Of a stretch of DNA of 64,000 nt, positions 52,543-63,930 are shown piece after piece. Where the stretch lies: contig JADFDC010000009.1 in NCBI GenBank assembly GCA_018263115.1, positions 1-64,000 of the forward strand. The letters are read 5' to 3'. The notes under the pieces were generated by a model. The model ran no database searches. It was not told the origin of the DNA and saw only the letters and a list, made by a program, of their open reading frames with translations. Positions within the stretch are counted from its first letter, which is position 1, and the number at the start of each line of letters is the position of its first letter. A program made the position numbers and the translations under genes. This DNA comes from Thiobacillus sp. (lineage in GTDB: Bacteria; Pseudomonadota; Gammaproteobacteria; Burkholderiales; Thiobacillaceae).

Positions 52543-52559
52543 CTTAATGAAGGCTTAAT
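52543..52559 (+). promoter_or_regulatory. CTTAAT-N5-CTTAAT response-regulator box upstream of the RND operon
   Basis: Exact direct repeat CTTAAT GAAGG CTTAAT, the form of a PmrA/QseB-type box. Ten nt after it comes TAGACT, a possible -10, and the first gene of the efflux operon starts at 52605. The same arrangement appears at 59360. Confidence 0.7.
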
Positions 52560-52604
52560 CTGATTTTCCTAGACTTCAGGCCTGATTTCTGACGGGCTTT
52601 AATA

Positions 52605-53003
52605 GTGACCAAAGCTAAATGCATATCCCTGCTGGGTTGGATTCTGGTTCTGCTGCAATTGCTGAATCCGTTTCTGCACGCCCACGCGCAGGGGCTGGAC
52701 GGCACGTCGGGTTTGCATGTGCATGGCACGCAAGCCGGCTCCCTGGCCAGTGGTCAGGCGGACAATCCCCTGCTCATGGGGGCAGATGCCGGACATTGGG
52801 TGCTGGGGATGCCCGCAGGGCACCGCGCCGTTGAATATTCAGGCGAAGTATCTGACAGCAATGAGCTTCCACTGCCTGCATCATGGATATTGTCAGCCGC
52901 AGCCAGTCGGCACGGCAGCTTCCAACCGCTGAAGATTTCCACGCCTTGCTGGCGCCTCCTCGTTTCGTCTCCTCCTCCCGCCCTCGCGCCTCCCGCAATC
53001 TGA
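52605..53003 (+). CDS. Small His-containing exported protein of the RND operon
   Basis: 132 residues from GTG 52605. A hydrophobic signal segment (about 8-28, LLGWILVLLQLLNPFLHAHA) and scattered histidines (LHVHG, GHWVL, AGHRA, ASRHGSF) suggest a metal-binding exported protein, similar in position to CzcI-type proteins of czc operons. The C-terminus (STPCWRLLVSSPPPALAPPA) is hydrophobic and Pro-rich. I do not recognise the family with certainty. Confidence 0.6.
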   Translation: MTKAKCISLLGWILVLLQLLNPFLHAHAQGLDGTSGLHVHGTQAGSLASGQADNPLLMGADAGHWVLGMPAGHRAVEYSGEVSDSNELPLPASWILSAAASRHGSFQPLKISTPCWRLLVSSPPPALAPPAI

Positions 53004-53088
53004 GTAGTCCCTAGCCGCCGCCTGACTGCGGTGGGTTTCGCATGCCCCTTTCGGGGCGTCATACAGATTGATTGTGGAGATTCAGTGT

Positions 53089-54168
53089 ATGAAAAGACTG
53101 ACCAGTCTTGCTCTTTTGCTTTTTGCTGTGCCGACTTTGCCTGCCTACGCGGCTGAAGTCATAACGCTTTCCATTCAACAGCAACAAAACCTTGGCATCC
53201 AGACCCAGGTCTTGATCCAGCTGGGCAGCGCGCAAAGCGGCTGGCCGGCGCGGGTTGAAGTGCCCGCCAATAATCAGCGCATGGTGGCGGCGCCGGTGGC
53301 CGGGCTGGTGACGCGCCTGACGAAGAGCGCAGGTGATTCGGTACGCGCGGGCGAACTGCTGGCCAGTCTGGCCAGTACCGAACTGCTGGCGGAACAACGC
53401 GGATTAATCACGACGCAAGCGCAACTCAAGCTTGTGCGCGACAAGGCGGCGCGTGACGAGAAACTGTTTGCGGAAGGCATTATCGCCGAATCGCGCCTGC
53501 GGCAAAGCCAGGCTGAACTGGCCCAGGCGCAGGCCGAGTACGGCGCGCAGCGCGCCACCTTGCGCGCCTATGGCGTGGGCAACCAGGGCGTTGCAGCCAT
53601 GAGCGCGGGCAAATTGTCGACCAGCTTGGGCGTGGCCGCACCGATTTCCGGCGTGGTGCTGGAACATCTGATCGGCGTTGGCAGCCGCGTGGAAATCGGC
53701 GCGCCGCTGTACAAGCTGGCGAATCTGTCGCGGCTGATTCTGGAAATCCAGCTTCCCGCCAGTCAGGCCAATGTATTTTCCATTGGCCAGCCCGTCACGG
53801 TGGCCGGGTCGCAGGCCAGCGGCAAAATCACCGCGATCGGCGCGCTGGTGGGCGGCGCGCAAACCGTGACTGTACGTGCCGAGGTCCGCGATCCGCAAAA
53901 CCTGCTTCGGCCAGGACAACTGGTTGAGGCACGCACATCGGCTCAGGCCAAAGGCAGTTTCGTCAGCGTGCCCGTCCAGGCCATCGCCTGGCAAAGCGGC
54001 AAGGCCTACGTGTTTGTGGCCACACCATCCGGATTTAACGCCACGCCGGTCAGTGTGCAAGCGCAGACGCCGCAAAGCGCCATGGTAGGCGGATTGAAAG
54101 GCAATGAACGCATCGCCGTTTCCGGTCTTGCCGCGCTGAAGTCACTGTGGCAGGGCGGAGGCGAGTGA
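53089..54168 (+). CDS. RND efflux periplasmic adaptor, CzcB/CusB family
   Basis: 359 residues from ATG 53089, with GGAG 9 nt upstream. Signal peptide (cleavage near AYA, residue 21), lipoyl/hairpin region (LVTRLTKSAGDSVRAGELLASLAS and its partner AAPISGVVLEHLIGVGSRVEIGAPLYKLA), a coiled-coil hairpin (about 100-165) and a C-terminal barrel. It joins the inner-membrane pump to the outer-membrane channel. The stop overlaps the czcA start (TGATG). Confidence 0.92.
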   Translation: MKRLTSLALLLFAVPTLPAYAAEVITLSIQQQQNLGIQTQVLIQLGSAQSGWPARVEVPANNQRMVAAPVAGLVTRLTKSAGDSVRAGELLASLASTELLAEQRGLITTQAQLKLVRDKAARDEKLFAEGIIAESRLRQSQAELAQAQAEYGAQRATLRAYGVGNQGVAAMSAGKLSTSLGVAAPISGVVLEHLIGVGSRVEIGAPLYKLANLSRLILEIQLPASQANVFSIGQPVTVAGSQASGKITAIGALVGGAQTVTVRAEVRDPQNLLRPGQLVEARTSAQAKGSFVSVPVQAIAWQSGKAYVFVATPSGFNATPVSVQAQTPQSAMVGGLKGNERIAVSGLAALKSLWQGGGE

Positions 54169-57100
54169 TGCTCAACCGCCTGATTGAATTTTCGCTGACG
54201 CAAAGAATCCTGACACTGGCGCTGATGGCGCTGCTGACGGCCTTTGGCATTCGCGCCTATCTGGGGTTGCCGATCGATGCCTTTCCCGATGTGTCCACCA
54301 CGCAGGTCAAGCTGATCCTGAAAGCGCCAGGCATGACGCCGGAAGAAGTGGAATCGCGCATTGCCACGCCGATCGAAATGGAAATGCTGGGTATCCCGAA
54401 CCAGCGCCTGCTGCGCTCGGTGTCCAAGTATGCCTTGACCGACATCACCATTGATTTCGAGGAAGGCACCGACATCTACTGGGCGCGCAGCCAGGTGGCC
54501 GAGCGCCTGAATGGCGTATTGGGCGACCTGCCGCAAGGCGTGACCGGCGGGCTGGCGCCCATCACCACGCCGCTGGGCGAAATGTTCATGTTCACTGTCG
54601 AAGGCGGTAATCTCAGCCTGGCGGATCGCCGCTCGCTGCTGGACTGGGTGATTCGCCCCCAGTTGCGCACATTACCCGGCGTGGCGGACGTGAATGCGCT
54701 GGGCGGCTTTGTCAAAACCTTCGAAGTCGTGCCGGACAGCAACGCGCTGGCCGCACGCGGCGTCACACTCATGCAGTTGAAGGACGCGATTCAGGCCAAT
54801 AACCGCAATGATGGTGCGGGCCGGTTGAATGAAGGCGAAGAAGTCTGGCTGGTGCGCATCGAGGGCGCGGTTAAAACCCTGGACGATCTGGCGGCCATCG
54901 TCGTGGCCGATAAAAATGGCGTGCCAGTGCGCGTGGGCGATGTAGCCAATGTGCGCACCGGCAGTCTCACACGATATGGCGCCGTGACCATGGGCGGCAA
55001 GGGCGAGGCGGTGGAAGGGCTGGTGTTAGGTCTGCGCGGCGCCAATGCCGGACAGTTGGTCGAAAGGGTTGCTGCCAAACTGGCTGAAATCGAAAAGACA
55101 TTGCCCGCTGGCGTGAAACTGGTGCCTTTCTATAACCGTGGCAATCTGGTGACGCAGGCGGTCGACACCGTGTCCAAGGCCTTGTATGAAGCCGTCGCTC
55201 TGGTGCTGGTTCTGCTGCTGCTGTTCCTCGGCAACATGCGCGCGGCGCTGGTAGTGGCGGTGATTCTGCCTTTGTCGGCATTGTTCACATTTGTACTGAT
55301 GCGCCAGTTCGGCATGAGCGCGAACCTGATGAGCCTGGGCGGGCTGGCGATTGCAATTGGTCTTCTGGTCGATGCTGCGGTGGTGGTGGTGGAAAACATC
55401 GAAAGCCAACTCGGCCATGAAGCCGGCAACGACAAGTCGCATCACAGCAAGCCGCGCCTGCATTTGATCTACCGCGCCAGCAAGGAAGTCGCCGTGCCGG
55501 TGGTATCGGGCATGGTCATCATCGCGCTGGTGTTCATGCCGTTGCTGACGCTGGAAGGCCTGGAAGGCAAGCTGTTCAAGCCGGTTGCGTTGACCATCGT
55601 GTTCGCGCTGATGGGCTCGATGGTGTTGTCGCTGACGGTCATTCCGGCGCTGAGTTCGCTGCTGCTGAAGCAGGTCGCTCACAGCGACCCCTGGCTGCCC
55701 CGCAAGGCGCTGCTGGCCTACACCCCGATTCTGGATCTTGCCCTGGCCAGGCCCAAGCCGTTCATTATCGGCGCAGTGGCGCTGCTGCTTGCTGCGGGCG
55801 CGACTTATCCCTTTATTGGCAAAACCTTCTTGCCAACGATGGACGAGGGCGATCTGATCCTGCAACTGGAAAAACTGCCTTCCGTCAGCCTTGAACAAAC
55901 CGTGGCCACCGACCTGGCCGTTCAGAAGGCGATTCTCAAACGTGTGCCGGAAGTCGGCGGCATCATCGCCCGCTCGGGATCGGACGAACTCGGGCTGGAT
56001 CCGATGGGCTTGAACCAGACCGATACCTTCCTCGTGCTGAAGCCGCGCGACACCTGGCGCAAGTCCGACAAGGAATGGTTAATGGAAGAAATCCGTACCG
56101 TGATGAAAGACTTCCCCGGTATGGGTTACGGCTTTACCCAGCCCATCGACATGCGCGTTTCGGAAATGCTGACCGGCTCGCGCGGCGATCTGGCCGTCAA
56201 GGTGTTCGGTCCGGATATCGCCATGCTGAACGATTTGGCGGCGCGCATCGAAACCGCGCTAAACAATGTGCCCGGCGCACAGGATGTGTTCAGCCTCAAG
56301 AACGATGGCGTGCAATATCTGAGTGTGCGCGTGGACCGTCTTGCAGCGGGCCGTCTGGGCGTGGATACGGATCAGTTGTCGGGCGTGCTGAAGACGCTGA
56401 TCGAAGGCGAGAAATCCGGTGTTGTCAGCGAGAGTGGACGCCGCGTGCCGCTGGTGTTGCGCGGCAGCGAAGCCTTGCGCACTTCGCCCGCGCTGTTTTC
56501 GCAACTGCAACTGACTTTGCCGGATGGGCGCAGCGTGCCCATTTCCGCCGTGGCCAGTATCGAACGCACGGAAGGCCCGGTGGCCATCAACCGCGAAAAT
56601 GCCGAGCGCTTTGTCGTGGTGCAGTCGAATGTGGCGGGGCGTGATCTGGTGAGCTTCGTCGAGGAGGCCAGGACGCGTATTGCAAGTGAGGTCAAATTGC
56701 CTCCGGGATATCGCATCACCTGGGGCGGACAGTTCGAGAACCAGCAGCGCGCAGCGGCGCGCCTGGCGGTCGTCGTGCCGGTAGCCTTGCTGCTGATTTT
56801 CGGCATCCTGTTCGCCACCTTCAAAAGCATTCGCCAGTCAGTGCTGGTCTTGTCAAATGTGCCGTTCGCCATGGTGGGTGGCATCTTCGGCCTGGCGGCG
56901 GCGGGCGAATATCTTTCCGTGCCGGCCTCGGTCGGCTTTATCGCCCTGCTGGGCATAGCGGTGCTGAACGGCGTCGTGCTGGTGAGTTATTTCAACCAGA
57001 TGCTGGCACAGGGCATGGCGCTGAATGACGTGGTGCGCGAAGGCGCGCGCAGGCGCTTGCGTCCGGTGCTGATGACCGCGAGCATCGCCGCCTTCGGATT

Positions 57101-57263
57101 GATCCCCCTGCTGCTGGCGACCGGGCCAGGATCGGAAATCCAGCGGCCCTTGGCGATCGTCGTCATCGGCGGCCTGATCACCTCCACGCTGCTGACGCTG
57201 ATTCTTTTGCCCATCCTGTTCCGTCGTTTTGGCGTGTCAAATAACAAAGGTAACGAATCATGA
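54168..57263 (+). CDS. Heavy-metal RND efflux pump, CzcA/CusA family
   Basis: 1031 residues from ATG 54168, twelve membrane helices with two large periplasmic loops. The motif in TM4 (about 390-412) reads GGLAIAIGLLVDAAVVVVEN. It lacks the DFG of the Zn/Co/Cd (HME1) pumps and looks nearer to the Cu/Ag (HME4) or unassigned (HME5) types, so divalent-metal specificity should not be assumed. A short His-bearing insert (KSHHSKPRL) follows it. The end overlaps the DUF3240 gene by 4 nt. Confidence 0.93.
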   Translation: MLNRLIEFSLTQRILTLALMALLTAFGIRAYLGLPIDAFPDVSTTQVKLILKAPGMTPEEVESRIATPIEMEMLGIPNQRLLRSVSKYALTDITIDFEEGTDIYWARSQVAERLNGVLGDLPQGVTGGLAPITTPLGEMFMFTVEGGNLSLADRRSLLDWVIRPQLRTLPGVADVNALGGFVKTFEVVPDSNALAARGVTLMQLKDAIQANNRNDGAGRLNEGEEVWLVRIEGAVKTLDDLAAIVVADKNGVPVRVGDVANVRTGSLTRYGAVTMGGKGEAVEGLVLGLRGANAGQLVERVAAKLAEIEKTLPAGVKLVPFYNRGNLVTQAVDTVSKALYEAVALVLVLLLLFLGNMRAALVVAVILPLSALFTFVLMRQFGMSANLMSLGGLAIAIGLLVDAAVVVVENIESQLGHEAGNDKSHHSKPRLHLIYRASKEVAVPVVSGMVIIALVFMPLLTLEGLEGKLFKPVALTIVFALMGSMVLSLTVIPALSSLLLKQVAHSDPWLPRKALLAYTPILDLALARPKPFIIGAVALLLAAGATYPFIGKTFLPTMDEGDLILQLEKLPSVSLEQTVATDLAVQKAILKRVPEVGGIIARSGSDELGLDPMGLNQTDTFLVLKPRDTWRKSDKEWLMEEIRTVMKDFPGMGYGFTQPIDMRVSEMLTGSRGDLAVKVFGPDIAMLNDLAARIETALNNVPGAQDVFSLKNDGVQYLSVRVDRLAAGRLGVDTDQLSGVLKTLIEGEKSGVVSESGRRVPLVLRGSEALRTSPALFSQLQLTLPDGRSVPISAVASIERTEGPVAINRENAERFVVVQSNVAGRDLVSFVEEARTRIASEVKLPPGYRITWGGQFENQQRAAARLAVVVPVALLLIFGILFATFKSIRQSVLVLSNVPFAMVGGIFGLAAAGEYLSVPASVGFIALLGIAVLNGVVLVSYFNQMLAQGMALNDVVREGARRRLRPVLMTASIAAFGLIPLLLATGPGSEIQRPLAIVVIGGLITSTLLTLILLPILFRRFGVSNNKGNES

Positions 57264-57562
57264 ATCTGGTTTTGCTCACTATTGTCGCGCCCGCCAGGTT
57301 GAAGGACGATTTGCTGGAACTCTTGCTCAAGCACCCGGATCTGGCGTCCGGTTTCACGGTTAGCCAGGCCGAAGGCCACGGCGCCGATCTCGCATTCCGC
57401 ACCGTGACGGATCAGGTTCGCGGCCGTGAAGACCGGATCAGAACCGAGTGTGTCATCCAGAACGAAAATCTCCCCGCCTTGAGGGAAGTCATCAAACACG
57501 GCCTGCCTGGCAGCAACATCGTTTGCTGGGCAGTCCCCGTCATGGAGTTCGGAAAATGTTGA
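57260..57562 (+). CDS. DUF3240 family small protein of RND operons
   Basis: 100 residues, soluble, without signal. The fold looks PII/CutA-like (LVLLTIVAPARLKDDLLELLLKHPDLASGFTV), a family often found next to heavy-metal RND pumps, where it may sense metal or regulate the pump. Overlaps the pump gene by 4 nt and CzcC by 7 nt. Confidence 0.8.
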   Translation: MNLVLLTIVAPARLKDDLLELLLKHPDLASGFTVSQAEGHGADLAFRTVTDQVRGREDRIRTECVIQNENLPALREVIKHGLPGSNIVCWAVPVMEFGKC

Positions 57563-58797
57563 AGTTTGCTGTTGGAATCATTTCGTGCGCGGCAGGGCTA
57601 TCCATCACATCAGTCCATGCCGCCGATTGGCCAGGGCTGCCGCCTTCGGATCAGGCTGCTGACGCGCTGTCAAAACAGCCGCGCGTGCTGGAAGCAATGG
57701 TCATGCTGGATGCCGCAAAGTCGAAAGCCGAAGCCCTGAAGGCGGGTAGTCACGAATGGACGGCGCGCGCCGGCCTGCAAAACCGCTCGGTCAGGAACGG
57801 AACGGACAGCCGTGAATGGGAAACGGCGCTGGAGCGCGCCATCCGCTTGCCCGGCAAGGCCAGACTGGATGGCAGTCTGGGGCAGTCGCTGGTTCAGCAG
57901 TCAGAATTTGCCGTGGGCGATGCGATGCATGAATCGGGCAAGGAACTGCTTAAAAGCTGGTTCGATTACGCACGCGCACGGGAACACGCGCGGGTGTGGG
58001 AAACGCAGACTGGATTATTGAAAACACAATTGGACATCGTCGAGAAACGAATTCGCGCGGGCGATGCGCCCAAGCTGGAACGAGAGGCCGCGCGCGCCGC
58101 GCTCAGCCAGAGCCAAAGCCAGACCGCGCGTGCGGTGATGCAACGGGAATCCGCGCATACCCTGCTCAAATCACGCTACCTACGGCTTGCTCAGCTTGAA
58201 GTGGATATGCCTGAGCCTGCCCCGTTGGAGGGCACGCTGGAAAGCTGGCGGGCGGCCATGCTGGAAGACAATCACGAACTGGCTTACCAGCAGGCCGCGG
58301 CGCAGTCCGCCAAACTGAACGCGGAACGGCAATCCGCGAACAGGAAACCCGATCCCGCTGTTGGCGTGCGCTACAGCTCTGAGCAGGGCGGAGATGAAAA
58401 GGTGTTGGGCGCCTATGTGAGCATTGCCCTGCCCGGCGCAGCGCGCAGACATGATGGAGCAGCCGCACTGGCCGAGTCCCAGGCCGCTGCGGTAAGGGCC
58501 AATGCAGTCAGGGCGAGATTGTCGCAGGAGGCGGAAATCCAGTATCTGGGCGCGCTGCATAGCCGCGATGCCTGGCTCAACGCCAAGGAATCGTTGCTGG
58601 CTTATCAAAAGCAGGCAGAGGGTGCGGCGCGCGCCTACCAGTTGGGTGAAGGCAATCTCTCCGAATCCCTGACTGCCCGCAGATTGGCTCTTGAAGCGCA
58701 GCTTAATGAAATCGCCGCGCGGGCGGACGCGGTGGAGTCCCATTACAGGCTCAAACTGGATGCACATCAGCTTTGGCCATTCCATCAATCCGAATAA
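57556..58797 (+). CDS. TolC-family outer-membrane channel (CzcC-like)
   Basis: 413 residues from ATG 57556 (track start 36 codons too early). Signal peptide (cleavage near VHA), then the two long helical repeats of OEP/TolC channels rich in Ala, Gln, Glu and Arg (LDAAKSKAEALKAGSHEW, LARAREHARVWETQ-like regions). It completes the tripartite pump. The order here, B-A-(DUF3240)-C, differs from the usual C-B-A. Confidence 0.88.
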   Translation: MLKFAVGIISCAAGLSITSVHAADWPGLPPSDQAADALSKQPRVLEAMVMLDAAKSKAEALKAGSHEWTARAGLQNRSVRNGTDSREWETALERAIRLPGKARLDGSLGQSLVQQSEFAVGDAMHESGKELLKSWFDYARAREHARVWETQTGLLKTQLDIVEKRIRAGDAPKLEREAARAALSQSQSQTARAVMQRESAHTLLKSRYLRLAQLEVDMPEPAPLEGTLESWRAAMLEDNHELAYQQAAAQSAKLNAERQSANRKPDPAVGVRYSSEQGGDEKVLGAYVSIALPGAARRHDGAAALAESQAAAVRANAVRARLSQEAEIQYLGALHSRDAWLNAKESLLAYQKQAEGAARAYQLGEGNLSESLTARRLALEAQLNEIAARADAVESHYRLKLDAHQLWPFHQSE

Positions 58798-58887
58798 TTT
58801 ATAGGCAGTGAATTGAACTTCAGGGAGTGGTTGATCTCTCAGGATAAAGAGGTCTTATTTTGGTGGTGTTTATTTAGGAGTCAAATC

Positions 58888-59304
58888 ATGAAACATGCTT
58901 ACTTCACAATTGCGGCAACAGCGATGACCTTGGTGCTGACCGGCCAAGCCGGTGCAGCTGATCAGGTGAGGGAACAGGACAGGGAACGTATCCATGTCGA
59001 AACTCAGACACAGCAGCAGACCCAGACGCAAGTCAGAGATCAGGAACGTATTTACGGGAGTCAAATGATGACCGAACAAGAAAGAAACGAATACCGCAAT
59101 CAAATGCGCACCCTCAAAACTGAACAAGAGCGCGAGGCTTTCCGCAAGGAGCATCACGAAAAAATGAAAGTGCGCGCAAAGGCCCAGGGAGTGGCACTTC
59201 CAGATGAACCTCCCGCCCAGGGCGCAGGCAAGGGCATGGGCACCGGAGCAGGCAAGGGCATGGGCACCGGAGCAGGGGGCGGATACGGTGGTGGCCGGAA
59301 GTAA
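58888..59304 (+). CDS. Gln-rich exported protein with GKGMGTGA repeats
   Basis: 138 residues from ATG 58888, with TAGGAGTC 7 nt upstream. Signal peptide (cleavage near AGA, residue 22), a Gln/Thr/Glu-rich middle (TQTQQQTQTQ), a charged helix (TEQERNEYRNQMRTLKTEQEREAFRKEHHEKM) and a Gly-rich tail built from a 24-nt tandem repeat. Lies 91 nt after the CzcC-like gene, with no clear terminator between. Probably envelope-associated; function unknown. Confidence 0.65.
   Translation: MKHAYFTIAATAMTLVLTGQAGAADQVREQDRERIHVETQTQQQTQTQVRDQERIYGSQMMTEQERNEYRNQMRTLKTEQEREAFRKEHHEKMKVRAKAQGVALPDEPPAQGAGKGMGTGAGKGMGTGAGGGYGGGRK
59224..59271 (+). repeat. 24-nt in-frame tandem repeat (two copies)
   Basis: Two identical consecutive 24-mers beginning GCAGGCAAGGGCATGGGCAC encode AGKGMGTG twice within the Gly-rich tail of the preceding protein. 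Confidence 0.9.
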
Positions 59305-59332
59305 TTTCTGATTCGGCCTCATCAACGTTGAG

Positions 59333-59357
59333 ACGCCAGCAGCAATGCTGGCGTTTT
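59333..59357 (+). terminator. Terminator after the RND operon
   Basis: ACGCCAGCA GCAA TGCTGGCGT, a perfect 9-bp stem with a GCAA tetraloop, followed by TTTC. It separates the efflux operon from the cytochrome operon. Confidence 0.75.
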
Positions 59358-59359
59358 CA

Positions 59360-59376
59360 CTTAATGGCTGCTTAAT
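59360..59376 (+). promoter_or_regulatory. CTTAAT-N5-CTTAAT response-regulator box upstream of the cytochrome operon
   Basis: Exact direct repeat CTTAAT GGCTG CTTAAT, 3 nt after the terminator. Ten nt downstream lies CATGCT, aligned with the TAGACT after the other copy at 52543. The start codon of the SHP gene is 50 nt further on. Confidence 0.7.
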
Positions 59377-59425
59377 TTTTACCGTGCATGCTTGGAACTG
59401 TCAGTAGACAACCAAGGAGATCGCA

Positions 59426-59827
59426 ATGCGCGCATTCATGTATCTGACTGTTCTGGGCGGATTGATTTCATCAGCCCAGGCGGCAAGTCCAACCGACTTT
59501 CTTGCAGCCTATGCCAGTCAGGCCAAGCAGGAAAGTCCTGCCTTTAACACACCATCAGCAAGCCGGGGGCAGCATTTCTTTCAGAAATCGCATGGCAAAG
59601 AGTGGAGTTGCGCTTCGTGCCATACCCAATTGCCAACCGGTTCAGGAAAACATCAGGTAACGGGAAAGCGCATCGAGGCGCTTGCCCCTTTGGCCAATGC
59701 GGAACGATTTACCAGCGAGCGGAAAGTGGAGAAATGGTTCAAGCGCAACTGCGGCGATGTGCTGGGCAGAAACTGCACGGCCCAGGAAAAGGGTGATGTC
59801 CTGGCTTGGTTGTTGTCACTTCGTTGA
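59426..59827 (+). CDS. shp: DUF1924 / SHP-type cytochrome c
   Basis: 133 residues. Signal peptide (cleavage near AQA), then a single heme site CASCH in EWSCASCHTQLP. The end NCGDVLGRNCTAQEKGDVLAWLLSL, with two further cysteines, is typical of SHP (sphaeroides heme protein), an oxygen- and NO-binding cytochrome. AAGGAGATCGCA lies before the ATG. It begins the operon shp-dhc-cytb-RR-HK. Confidence 0.85.
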   Translation: MRAFMYLTVLGGLISSAQAASPTDFLAAYASQAKQESPAFNTPSASRGQHFFQKSHGKEWSCASCHTQLPTGSGKHQVTGKRIEALAPLANAERFTSERKVEKWFKRNCGDVLGRNCTAQEKGDVLAWLLSLR

Positions 59828-59837
59828 GGAGAGGGAA

Positions 59838-60332
59838 ATGATGAATTTGCTTCAAAAGAAACTTGGTTTCAGTCCGATCACCGGACTGGCCTTGTGCCTG
59901 GCCGCGAGCGCTTCCAGCGCTAGTGAGGGCCGGTATTCGATTAACCATCCAGGCTACCAACAGGAGTGCGGCAGCTGCCACGTGGCCTACCCGCCGCAAA
60001 TGCTGTCGTCTGCCTCCTGGCGCGCCGTCATGGGCGGTCTGGACAAGCACTTTGGCACCGATGCCAGTCTGGATGAAAAAACACATTCGCAAATCCTGCG
60101 GTTTTTACTGGCCAATGCCGGCAAACGCAGCACGGATTCGAATGGCAAGCCGCTGCTTCGCATCACTGAAACGCGCGGGTTCATCCATGAGCATTCCGAG
60201 GAATTGCCGCAAGACATCTGGAAGCACCCTGCGGTCAAAACCGCCGCGAATTGCCAGGCTTGTCACACTGCCGCCGATAAGGGCGACTATTCCGAGCGAA
60301 GCCTTCGCTTGCCCAAAGGAGTAATGAAATGA
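59838..60332 (+). CDS. dhc: Diheme cytochrome c (DHC)
   Basis: 164 residues from ATG 59838 (GAGGAGAGGGAA just upstream). Signal peptide (cleavage near ASA), then two heme sites, CGSCHVAYPP and CQACHTAAD. DHC is the electron donor of SHP in Rhodobacter and Shewanella. It lies 10 nt after shp and overlaps the cytochrome b561 gene by 4 nt. Confidence 0.9.
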   Translation: MMNLLQKKLGFSPITGLALCLAASASSASEGRYSINHPGYQQECGSCHVAYPPQMLSSASWRAVMGGLDKHFGTDASLDEKTHSQILRFLLANAGKRSTDSNGKPLLRITETRGFIHEHSEELPQDIWKHPAVKTAANCQACHTAADKGDYSERSLRLPKGVMK

Positions 60333-61057
60333 ACACACAAGCATCCGGGCGCATCCTGGTCTGGGATCTGCCCACGCGCCTGTTTCACTGGCTGCTGGTA
60401 CTGAGCTTCGCCGGTGCGTGGTTGACGGCAGAAAGCGAACGGTATCGCGATCTTCACGTGATGCTGGGCTACAGCCTGCTGGGACTGATCGCCTTTCGCC
60501 TGGTATGGGGCGTCATTGGCACGCGTTATGCCCGTTTTAACGAATTCGTCCGCTCGCCAGGTGCGGCAATGCGCTATTTGAAATCGCTGGCCTCAGGCAA
60601 GGCGAAACACTTTATTGGCCACAATCCCGCCGGTGCCTTGGCCATTGTTCTGCTACTGTTAATGGGCATCGCGTCAGGTGTTTCTGGCTGGATGACCTAC
60701 AACGAGATTGGCGGAGAGTGGGTGGAAGAAGGACATGAACTCTTCTCTGATCTCATGCTTGTGGTGGTGGGCATTCATGTCGTTGGCGTCATCGTCGGCA
60801 GCCTTGCGCACCGCGAGAATCTGGTACGTGCCATGGTGACGGGCACCAAGCAGGGCGAATCCGGACAGGGTATCCGGAAGCCGCGAATCATTCCTGCCAT
60901 GTTGCTTGGGTTGAGCATGGCGGGATTCTGGGGCCTCTGGTTTAATGGCAAATTGAATATCGACGCTTCGGCTGAGACAGACAGCCTGCAGACATCAGGG
61001 TTGGTTGATGCCGGACAACACGGGCGCAAAGGCAATCACCATGAAGATGACGACTGA
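60329..61057 (+). CDS. Cytochrome b561-type membrane protein
   Basis: 242 residues; four membrane helices (about 18-36, 46-64, 105-122, 140-160) plus one near 193-210. The hallmark VWDLPTRLFHWLLVLSFAGAW and further His in LHVMLGY and GIHVVGV are the heme ligands. It likely passes quinol electrons to DHC and SHP. The C-terminal tail is acidic and His-bearing (GNHHEDDD). Ends 22 nt before the response regulator. Confidence 0.9.
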   Translation: MNTQASGRILVWDLPTRLFHWLLVLSFAGAWLTAESERYRDLHVMLGYSLLGLIAFRLVWGVIGTRYARFNEFVRSPGAAMRYLKSLASGKAKHFIGHNPAGALAIVLLLLMGIASGVSGWMTYNEIGGEWVEEGHELFSDLMLVVVGIHVVGVIVGSLAHRENLVRAMVTGTKQGESGQGIRKPRIIPAMLLGLSMAGFWGLWFNGKLNIDASAETDSLQTSGLVDAGQHGRKGNHHEDDD

Positions 61058-61079: not shown

Positions 61080-61745
61080 ATGCGCATCCTGGTGGTAGAA
61101 GACAACACCCTGCTGGGAGATGGCATCCAGACTGGACTCAGGCAGCACGGTTTTACGGTTGACTGGGTTCAGGACGGTGTCGCGGCGGACCTGGCCATCA
61201 AAGGCGAACCCTACGCCGCCGTCGTGCTTGACCTGGGACTGCCGCGCCGTTCGGGACTGGAAGTTCTGAGAGACATGCGCCATTCGTGCAATGCCACGCC
61301 GGTACTGATCCTGACGGCACGAGATGCCATAGAAGACAGGGTGGCCGGCCTCGATGCCGGCGCCGATGACTATCTGGTCAAGCCTTTCGACCTGAACGAA
61401 TTGTCCGCGCGCCTGCGCGCACTGATCCGCCGCGCGGGTGGCCATGCGTCGGCCGTGCTGACCGTTGGTGCGCTGAGTCTCGACCCTGCAGGCCGCACGG
61501 TGACTTTTCGCAATGAACCCAAAACCTTGTCCACCAGGGAATTCGATCTGCTGCATGCGCTGATGAACCATGCGGGTCGGGTCATGTCGCGTGAACAGAT
61601 CATGTCCGCGCTATATGCCTGGGGCGAGGAGATCGAGTCGAATGCAATCGACGTGCATCTTCACCACCTGCGCAGGAAGCTTTCTCCGGATGTCGTGCAA
61701 ACCCTGCGCGGGGTGGGATACATGCTGCCAAAGGATATCCAGTGA
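61080..61745 (+). CDS. OmpR-family response regulator (QseB/PmrA-like)
   Basis: 221 residues. Receiver domain (about 1-115) with VVLDLGLPRRSGLE carrying the phosphorylated Asp near residue 51, and LILTARDAIEDRVAGLDAGADDYLVKPFD; then a winged-helix DNA-binding domain (about 125-220; STREFDLLHALMNHAGRVMSREQIM). Relatives bind CTTAA-N5-CTTAA direct repeats, which are present upstream of its own operon and of the RND operon. Overlaps the kinase start by 4 nt. Confidence 0.93.
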   Translation: MRILVVEDNTLLGDGIQTGLRQHGFTVDWVQDGVAADLAIKGEPYAAVVLDLGLPRRSGLEVLRDMRHSCNATPVLILTARDAIEDRVAGLDAGADDYLVKPFDLNELSARLRALIRRAGGHASAVLTVGALSLDPAGRTVTFRNEPKTLSTREFDLLHALMNHAGRVMSREQIMSALYAWGEEIESNAIDVHLHHLRRKLSPDVVQTLRGVGYMLPKDIQ

Positions 61746-63073
61746 ACGTGACGATACGCGGCAGTGTCCGCCGCCGCCTGCTGCTCATGCTGCTTGGCGG
61801 CGTCATGCTGGTCTGGCTGGGCGCGGCCGCCGTCACTGCCTGGGAAACGCGTTCCGAAATGCAGGAGTTGCTGGACGCGCATCTCGCGCAAAGCGCCTCG
61901 CTGCTGGTTGCACAGATTGGCCACGACTTCGATGAAATTGAAATGGAACATGCCCTGCCGCTGCACAAATACGCGCACAACGTCGCCTTTCAGGTCTGGG
62001 AGCAGGGCCGTACGCTGCTGCTGCACTCCGCCGATGCGCCCGCCACACGGCTGGCCGAAACAGAAGAAGGATTCGCGGACGTTTCCCTGCAGGGGCAGGC
62101 CTGGCGCGTCTTCAGCGTTTGGGATGCCAGACACGAATACCTGATCCAGGTTGGTGAATCGGTGGAGGCCCGCGAACATCTCGCGCTGGAAATTCTGGAA
62201 AAATTGGTGCAGCCACTGCTGTACTCGATTCCGTTATTGGGGGTTCTGATCTGGTTTGCCGTGGGTGCTTCCCTGAAACCGGTGGGGAGGATAGGCGCGG
62301 CCCTGGCCCAGCGCGATCCCGGTTTTCTCGCGCCGATCGAGGACGAGGTGCCCGTGGAAATCGCCCCCATGGTGGATCGCCTGAATACCCTGCTGGGCAA
62401 GGTGCAAAGCTCGCTCGACAATGAGCGCCGCTTTACCAGCGACGCCGCGCACGAACTCCGCACGCCGTTGGCCGCGCTGAAAACCCAGCTTCAGGTGGCG
62501 AAAGGCGCAGGGAACAATGTGGAACGGAAACGCGCGATCAACCACGCGCTGCAAGCCGGCGACCGCGCCACGCGGCTGGTGGAACAATTGCTGACCTTGT
62601 CCCGGCTCGATCACGATACCTGGCCGCAACACGCCGAGACCGTCGACCTGCACCGGGTCGCGGCCGACGTGCTGGCCGAATCGGCGCCCACGGCATCCGA
62701 AAGGCATATCCAGCTTTCCCTTGCCGGAGAGCAGGGTGCTGCCGTCGAGGGACAGGCCGGCTTGCTGGGCATCCTGATCCGCAACCTTGTCGACAACGCC
62801 CTGCGTTATTCGCCGCCTGATACCGAAGTCGAAGTCAAAATTGGCAGTGAAGCAGGCCGAACCACGCTCGAAGTAAAAGACCAGGGGCCGGGCATACCGG
62901 AATCCGAACGGGAAAATGCCCTGCGCCGCTTTCATCGTCTTGCCGGCGAGGATACCTCCGGCAGCGGATTGGGCTTGTCTATTGTTGCACGCATCGCCGA
63001 ACTGCATCAGGCCAGGCTGGAATTGCTGGAAGGTGAGAACGGAAGAGGACTCAGAGTTAGGATAGCATTTTGA
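61742..63073 (+). CDS. Sensor histidine kinase (QseC-like)
   Basis: 443 residues, starting at GTG 61742. Two membrane helices (about 10-32 and 158-178) flank a periplasmic sensor region (about 33-157). The dimerisation/phosphotransfer box FTSDAAHELRTPLAALKTQ has the phosphorylated His near residue 239. The ATP-binding motifs are LVDNALRYSPP, VKDQGPGIPES and GSGLGLSIV. Likely stimulus: metal stress or redox state of the envelope, inferred from the operons that share the CTTAAT box. Confidence 0.93.
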   Translation: MNVTIRGSVRRRLLLMLLGGVMLVWLGAAAVTAWETRSEMQELLDAHLAQSASLLVAQIGHDFDEIEMEHALPLHKYAHNVAFQVWEQGRTLLLHSADAPATRLAETEEGFADVSLQGQAWRVFSVWDARHEYLIQVGESVEAREHLALEILEKLVQPLLYSIPLLGVLIWFAVGASLKPVGRIGAALAQRDPGFLAPIEDEVPVEIAPMVDRLNTLLGKVQSSLDNERRFTSDAAHELRTPLAALKTQLQVAKGAGNNVERKRAINHALQAGDRATRLVEQLLTLSRLDHDTWPQHAETVDLHRVAADVLAESAPTASERHIQLSLAGEQGAAVEGQAGLLGILIRNLVDNALRYSPPDTEVEVKIGSEAGRTTLEVKDQGPGIPESERENALRRFHRLAGEDTSGSGLGLSIVARIAELHQARLELLEGENGRGLRVRIAF

Positions 63074-63114: not shown

Positions 63115-63171
63115 GCACACCGTGAGGTGTGCTCAACATGTCAAAGGGGCCGTTTGCCCATTTGACATGTT
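63115..63171. repeat. Two hairpins between the kinase gene and the CRISPR array
   Basis: GCACACC GTGA GGTGTGC (63115-63132) is followed by a near-perfect 16-bp inverted repeat, AACATGTCAAAGGGGC (63135-63150) against GCCCATTTGACATGTT (63156-63171), 15 of 16 paired with a 5-nt loop. The right arm's last three bases are the first three of CRISPR repeat 1. It could be a transcription terminator without a T run, or a boundary element of the array. Confidence 0.8.
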
Positions 63172-63930
63172 GTAGCTCCCTCTCTCACCCCGGAAAGCTA
63201 CAATCTCCAGTCATAAATGTAGAACGCGCCGCGCGTTGTAGCTCCCTCTCTCACCCCGGAAAGCTACAATGGACGATTCGGTTGATCTGGATGCGCTGGT
63301 GTTGTAGCTCCCTCTCTCACCCCGGAAAGCTACAATAATTCGGCGGTATTCATCGTACCTATCCTGGTTGTAGCTCCCTCTCTCACCCCGGAAAGCTACA
63401 ATTATCTCAAGCGGCGCGAAAAGTTCCGCGCCGTTGTAGCTCCCTCTCTCACCCCGGAAAGCTACAATGGAAGGCGATTCGAATGTCTGGAACATGAAGT
63501 TGTAGCTCCCTCTCTCACCCCGGAAAGCTACAATTAGTTGGCCACGCCCCTGCGGACATCAATCGTTGTAGCTCCCTCTCTCACCCCGGAAAGCTACAAT
63601 GATGGTCAACACTTCACCAACGGACGGTTGGTTGTAGCTCCCTCTCTCACCCCGGAAAGCTACAATCGCGGCGTTCGCCGTTGTCCGTCTTTTCCGGTTG
63701 TAGCTCCCTCTCTCACCCCGGAAAGCTACAATCGCTACCAACATCTTGCAGGGCCGGAACCTGTTGTAGCTCCCTCTCTCACCCCGGAAAGCTACAATCG
63801 AATCGCTGTGGCGGTACATCCAGTGGGTGTTGTAGCTCCCTCTCTCACCCCGGAAAGCTACAATGAAGCGGTGCTGGCTGCCGTGACCGCGCTCGTTGTA
63901 GCTCCCTCTCTCACCCCGGAAAGCTACAAT
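63169..63930 (+). CRISPR. CRISPR array, type II-C-like repeat, 12 repeats / 11 spacers
   Basis: Twelve identical 36-nt repeats (GTTGTAGCTCCC...GCTACAAT) start at 63169 and every 66 nt to 63895, separated by 11 spacers of exactly 30 nt. Repeat ends are TTGTAGC / GCTACAA inverted. The 5' part GTTGTAGCTCCC and 3' GCTACAAT match the repeat of the Neisseria meningitidis II-C locus, where the last bases (TACAAT) act as a -10 box for crRNA promoters inside each repeat. Direction is therefore taken as plus. A strong terminator follows. No cas genes or tracrRNA are visible in the window. Confidence 0.97.

Follow-up and report, generated by a model that had tools for sequence, protein, structure and literature searches.

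A heavy-metal efflux operon and a cytochrome operon of Thiobacillus sp. each carry one copy of the same rare tandem box, CTTAAT-N5-CTTAAT, in front of their first gene, and we consider it likely, judging from sequence, that a QseB/PmrA-like response regulator encoded in the cytochrome operon (RR61080) activates both its own operon and the efflux operon through these boxes. Both operons lie in the window, the 64,000-nt stretch of DNA that was analyzed (contig JADFDC010000009.1, positions 1 to 64,000). The cytochrome operon encodes Sphaeroides haem protein (SHP), which is without an established function and whose operon had been tied to QseC-like sensors earlier by gene order only (Meyer et al. 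2010, PMC2909971). A shared rare operator would turn this into a defined two-target regulon with a named regulator and two short pieces of DNA, and it suggests seeking an SHP phenotype under metal stress. The linkage of SHP to QseC-like sensors and to Czc genes is already published; what is new here is the proposed regulon, with a shared box and a regulator of a known kind. The literature searched, to which most subscription journals do not belong, held no report of a promoter box shared by SHP and RND operons, and the sections of Meyer et al. 2010 considered here (PMC2909971) report no box.

The tandem boxes

The preliminary description had noted two copies of the box, 45-50 nt before a start codon and each followed after 10 nt by a −10-like hexamer. 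Both copies are exact: CTTAAT-GAAGG-CTTAAT (CTTAATGAAGGCTTAAT, 52543..52559, + strand) in the promoter of the metal-efflux operon and CTTAAT-GGCTG-CTTAAT (CTTAATGGCTGCTTAAT, 59360..59376, + strand) in that of the SHP operon. The first is 45 nt from the GTG at 52605 and the second 49 nt from the ATG at 59426, and the hexamers TAGACT (52570..52575, + strand) and CATGCT (59387..59392, + strand), both having A as second and T as sixth letter, begin exactly 10 nt past their box. The sequences flanking the two boxes are unlike each other, except for the motif and the −10.

In the whole assembly of this genome (G000; 2.35 Mb in 58 contigs, 96% complete), exact CTTAAT-N5-CTTAAT occurs twice, as the two focal boxes; the many unrelated copies that had been named in advance as evidence against a regulon did not turn up. 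In a 191-kb sample of this genome, CTTAAT turns up 7.3e-5 times per strand-position; at that frequency chance would supply 0.025 exact pairs genome-wide, and the probability of at least two is about 3e-4. With up to two mismatches the pattern is not rare in the window (18 of 100 shuffles yield at least three matches), and the relaxed form YTTAA-N6-YTTAA has 6 distinct sites in the genome, below its reversed control. We dropped overall enrichment of the relaxed motif as an argument because the reversed control is commoner; our case therefore rests on rarity, position and conservation, not on abundance. Two further sites were rejected as chance matches: the one single-mismatch site in the genome besides the focal pair (C54:50720), which overlaps the junction of two opposite-strand genes, and a site at C21:300, in which the match contains the ribosome-binding site AAGGAG beside the ATG of a porin.

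Organization of the two operons

The genes and the hairpin of this section are on the + strand. The efflux operon starts with ORF132 (52605..53003, GTG start), whose small secreted product contains the motif LNPFLHAHA and has no Pfam match. It is followed by a CzcB/CusB-like RND membrane-fusion protein (MFP, 53089..54168; PF16576 95.8 bits, TIGR01730 over its cut-off), an RND permease (54168..57263; PF00873), a DUF3240 protein (57260..57562; PF11582, 93 bits) and a CzcC-like outer-membrane efflux protein (OEP, 57556..58797; PF02321, 81 bits). The permease scores 1072 bits against TIGR00914, over the cut-off of 701, which places it in the CusA/CzcA family of heavy-metal pumps; its nearest solved structure is ZneA, followed by CusA. 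In the permease alignment, the three methionines that form the Cu/Ag site of CusA appear not to be conserved, so the substrate is more likely a divalent cation.

Proteins resembling ORF132, an unnamed group that is small, secreted and marked by an LLHAHA motif, precede RND operons in many relatives, and small ORFs of this type are found 5' of the MFP gene in G006, G010, G017, G021, G023, G030 and G050. Downstream of the OEP gene lies ORF138 (58888..59304), a secreted small protein rich in Gln, Glu and Arg and with no Pfam match above cut-off. G023 and G030 have homologues of it next to SHP and RND clusters, the copy in G030 having a box upstream. A strong hairpin with a short T run (59329..59358; RNA fold −21.5 kcal/mol, z −5.8) abuts the SHP box. 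It is not listed by a terminator scan based on a T-run rule, its T run being short, but is the probable terminator of the RND/ORF138 unit. Since it ends just before the SHP box, the RND and SHP operons are probably transcribed as separate units, with one box for each.

The second operon encodes SHP (DUF1924, 59426..59827; PF09086, 129.5 bits), a dihaem cytochrome c (DHC, 59838..60332; PF09626, 122.6 bits), a membrane protein of the cytochrome b561 family (60329..61057; PF01292, 93.2 bits), the OmpR-family response regulator RR61080 (61080..61745), the proposed binder of both boxes, and a QseC-like histidine kinase (HK) with a 2CSK_N sensor domain (61742..63073; PF08521, 57.7 bits; QseC model NF007664, 286.8 bits, under its cut-off of 475). 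The gaps between these genes range from −4 to 22 nt, on which grounds they probably form a single operon, and the set DUF1924, DHC, b561, RR and QseC-like HK is complete for an SHP/DHC/cytochrome b operon of the SK2 sensor class. The sensor region of the kinase contains a conserved acidic/His stretch, which reads DFDEIEMEH here, with a DxxE motif, versus EIDEVELEH in the genus, with ExxE (EIDE) in the same-genus kinases. About 100 nt past the kinase stop codon begins a CRISPR array (63169-63930) of 12 repeats of 36 nt (GTTGTAGCTCCCTCTCTCACCCCGGAAAGCTACAAT) at an exact spacing of 66 nt.

Conservation of the box in relatives

Within the genus, all five SHP operons that include an RR/HK pair carry CTTAA[TC]-N5-CTTAAT before SHP, and the gene order in G001, G003, G004 and G008 is as here. 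The focal genome has a second SHP copy, on contig C6, with neither an adjacent response regulator nor a box. For a broader comparison we used 80 named SHP loci from GTDB genomes and the box form [CT]TTAA-N6-[CT]TTAA, counting response regulators within 6 kb. In these loci, box density in the region 200 to 40 bp 5' of SHP was 2.47 per kb against 0.0071 elsewhere, an approximately 346-fold difference. Of the 47 loci with a QseB-like regulator in that range, 27 had a box, versus 4 of the 31 without such a regulator (Fisher p=1.1e-4, uncorrected for shared ancestry); in the remaining 20 of the 47 regulator-bearing loci the strict box is absent. In the named loci, the 31 SHP promoters with a box have a −10 starting 10 nt past it, with A2 and T6 invariant; in the orientation tested, a −10 at this distance is missing at the SHP boxes of four more distant family members, G012, G020, G029 and G034.

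At RND operons, we considered the 25 best MFP orthologues in 61 relatives and searched 650 bp upstream of each. Eight of the 25 operons are boxed (G000, G006, G010, G011, G016, G023, G030, G050), the other 17 lack the strict box, and no box was found in 85 kb of other sequence from the same loci. The sequence NANNNT is found at exactly +10 in all eight, against a background of 3.9%; as the +10 rule had been derived from SHP promoters, this is an independent test. As in the window, the box and the fusion gene are separated by a small HAHA-type ORF in G010, G023 and G030. Joint control of the two operons, as put forward in the preliminary description, thus gains support from a box that is conserved independently at both operon types.

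The arrangement of the two operons varies. In the complete genome G010, exactly two sites match YTTAAK-N5-YTTAAK: one precedes SHP and the other, at a distance of 810 kb, the RND operon. The only close match there to a QseB-like regulator (E below 1e-55) is inside the SHP operon. In Candidatus Nitrotoga, the RND operon lies directly 3' of SHP-DHC-cytB-RR-HK. G006 has an RND box and, in a genome 81% complete, no close QseB-like regulator (best match 41%).

The regulator and its paralogue

Among all models, RR61080 scores best against the QseB equivalog (NF007663, 249.8 bits), below the cut-off of 345, followed by 238.5 bits for the PmrA equivalog (NF007928, cut-off 330); with the heavy-metal response regulator model it reaches 185 bits (cut-off 279). 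By these scores RR61080 is QseB-like, not QseB. Its best PDB matches are the PmrA/BasR structures 8jo2 and 4s04/4s05, of which 4s05 is a DNA complex, and the earlier assignment to the PmrA/QseB type agrees with these matches and with the two models, although both scores stay under the equivalog cut-offs. Taking the DNA-contact residues of PmrA as reference (PMC4660055, PMC3973317), RR61080 is identical at R171, N188, V192, H193, H195, R198 and R210, all but the first of which make up the PmrA-like DNA reading head, and differs by T187S, N196H and K153R. The box, too, fits the type: PmrA of Klebsiella binds CTTAAT-N5-CCTAAG (PMC3973317) and BqsR of P. aeruginosa binds TTAAG-N6-TTAAG with one pentamer overlapping the −35 (PMC4682146), in line with the operator form cited in the preliminary description.

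The focal genome encodes a paralogue of RR61080 on contig C54 (C54:57919), 55% identical to it, with Val190 and Tyr193 in place of Ile190 and His193. The paralogue forms a QseB/QseC-like pair located downstream of, and on the same strand as, a gene of the thermostable-haemolysin family (PF12261), which is preceded at 44 bp by TTTAAG-N5-TTTAAG (C54:53677-53693, L145) and followed by an AMP-ligase-like gene, recognized by eye, and a short-chain dehydrogenase. Comparing regulators with the boxes of their operons, we found Ile190 in 9 of 9 regulators whose first half-site ends in T versus 4 of 28 with a half-site ending in G or C (Fisher p=6e-6, or 5e-4 with the T group collapsed to five lineages), a comparison that was picked after seeing the data and in which ancestry is only partly corrected. 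That residue 190 sets the half-site preference is therefore suggestive only; such a correlation would amount to a small specificity rule for QseB/PmrA-type regulators. With Ile190 in RR61080 and Val190 in the paralogue, it leads us to assign the two CTTAAT boxes to RR61080.

Alternatively, the C54 paralogue, or both paralogues by cross-talk, could drive the RND operon, leaving RR61080 with the SHP operon only. Besides the overall identity of the two proteins and a PmrA-type recognition helix that they largely have in common, this is favored by G011, where the RND operon has next to it a regulator of the C54 clade, not of the clade of the SHP operons, and the RND box reads TTTAAG-N5-TTTAAT; cross-talk between paralogous regulators is thus possible, and some lineages may have swapped the regulator partner. 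We nevertheless give this alternative a small chance in the focal genome, where the paralogue's own operon has the TTTAAG-N5-TTTAAG box while the RND box shares its CTTAAT half-sites with the SHP box, where the two regulators differ at residues 190 and 193, and in view of G010, which has both boxes yet a single close regulator, in the SHP operon.

Promoter geometry and proposed mechanism

PmrA/QseB-type operators are direct repeats of CTTAA-type half-sites with a 5-bp spacer, which is what we find at both places, and they overlap the −35 at a fixed distance from the −10, as do the 31 boxed SHP and the eight boxed RND promoters. If the −10 is taken as −12 to −7, the box spans approximately −39 to −23, in the place of the −35, and no TTGACA-like element was found in register. 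A box that replaces the −35 of a promoter without TTGACA is the geometry expected of an activator.

OmpR-family regulators can also repress, and RR61080 might bind both boxes as a repressor, or control SHP and pump in opposite directions. This we hold to be quite unlikely: the box sits where the −35 would be, with no TTGACA-like element in register, and SHP and Czc genes rise together in Allochromatium vinosum (PMC11267869). That the boxes arose by chance or by local duplication and have no regulatory meaning is hardly credible, despite their being two copies only, 6.8 kb apart, and despite exact copies at places unrelated to SHP or RND in several relatives (G001:C3, G036:C55, G026, G027, G054 and G055, as well as a tandem array in G031:C24), given that the flanks of the two differ outside the motif and −10 and that boxes recur elsewhere at both operon types, unlinked in G010 and with the −10 spacing fixed.

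In the activation that we favor, a signal would be received at the 2CSK_N domain of the kinase (61742), which would phosphorylate RR61080; a dimer of the regulator would then read the two half-sites head to tail and recruit RNA polymerase, replacing the −35 contact. SHP-DHC-cytochrome b-RR-HK (by positive autoregulation) and ORF132-MFP-permease-DUF3240-OEP would be co-activated. From the evidence above we infer that a regulator binds, which regulator it is, that it activates instead of repressing, and what it responds to. That signal would probably be a metal outside the cell, or else a stress on the envelope that is linked to metals. A metal acting at the kinase is plausible by analogy, since several iron-sensing kinases carry periplasmic ExxE motifs (PMC12666569). 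Quorum sensing was discarded as the signal, for the name is inherited from QseBC only and nothing here points to it.

More tentatively, and with somewhat less than even confidence, SHP, DHC and cytochrome b may, in many betaproteobacteria and some gammaproteobacteria, constitute the redox module of a metal response, in which a metal-sensing QseB/PmrA-like regulator switches on the path of electrons from quinol to SHP along with an RND metal exporter. If true, SHP, the only known oxygen-binding c-type haem protein, would thereby be assigned a role in physiology.

Relation to known systems

A close parallel in DNA recognition is PmrAB (BasRS) of enterobacteria, with tandem CTTAA-type half-sites and 5-bp spacer, an OmpR-family regulator, the same base-contact residues and head-to-tail reading (PMC3973317, PMC4660055). 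The targets of PmrAB, however, give polymyxin resistance, in contrast to the cytochromes and metal pump here, and RR61080 is under the PmrA equivalog cut-off. QseBC, including the SK2 class, is the system against which regulator and kinase score best, but both remain under the respective equivalog cut-offs. BqsRS/CarRS of Pseudomonas aeruginosa resembles the present system in a regulator that binds TTAAG-N6-TTAAG with a pentamer over the −35, and its kinase senses periplasmic Fe2+ near an ExxE motif (PMC4682146, PMC12666569); the kinase here has DxxE in DFDEIEMEH instead, and the targets differ. With the heavy-metal systems CzcRS and CusRS the proposed regulon would have in common the two-component control of an RND metal pump, yet RR61080 falls short of the heavy-metal regulator cut-off (185 versus 279 bits) and is encoded in a cytochrome operon.

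SHP operons with QseC-like SK2 sensors were described by Meyer et al. 2010, who also noted Czc genes in the neighborhood of SHP, in Allochromatium among others (PMC2909971). In the SHP-CzcABC-FieF cluster of Allochromatium vinosum, SHP, DHC and cytochrome b neighbor CzcABC as they do in our window (PMC2909971), and a 2024 transcriptome of cells on pyrite has the genes for SHP, DHC, b561, RR, CzcA, MFP and OMP among the most induced (PMC11267869). This organism uses a different sensor class (SK1/Orf1) with its own regulator, so that it backs the functional link between SHP and Czc, not the box.

Other candidate boxes

In the focal genome, CTTAAGGCTGATTTAAG (G000:C9:31468-31484, L140) is located 44 bp 5' of a gene for a sulfatase-domain membrane protein (PF00884), which recalls the lipid-modifying targets of PmrA; there is no −10 at +10 of this site. 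Among the relatives, CTTAAG-N5-CTTAAG with a −10 at +10 precedes, in G030 (L234, G030:C3:45516), a PMT-domain glycosyltransferase similar to ArnT, and proteins of that kind are classical PmrA targets. Sister species may have a third target in a small secreted protein preceded by a −10 and the conserved box CTTAATG[AC]TGTCTTAAG (L239 1501, G004:C69; L240 1501, G003:C22), with a DUF2271 gene and a PepSY-like gene 3' of it in G003. Finally, CTTAAT or CTTAAG boxes are found before a small secreted protein rich in Ala and Lys and before another clade of QseB-like regulators (L114 15021, L115 6448, L117 1041, L233 1501).
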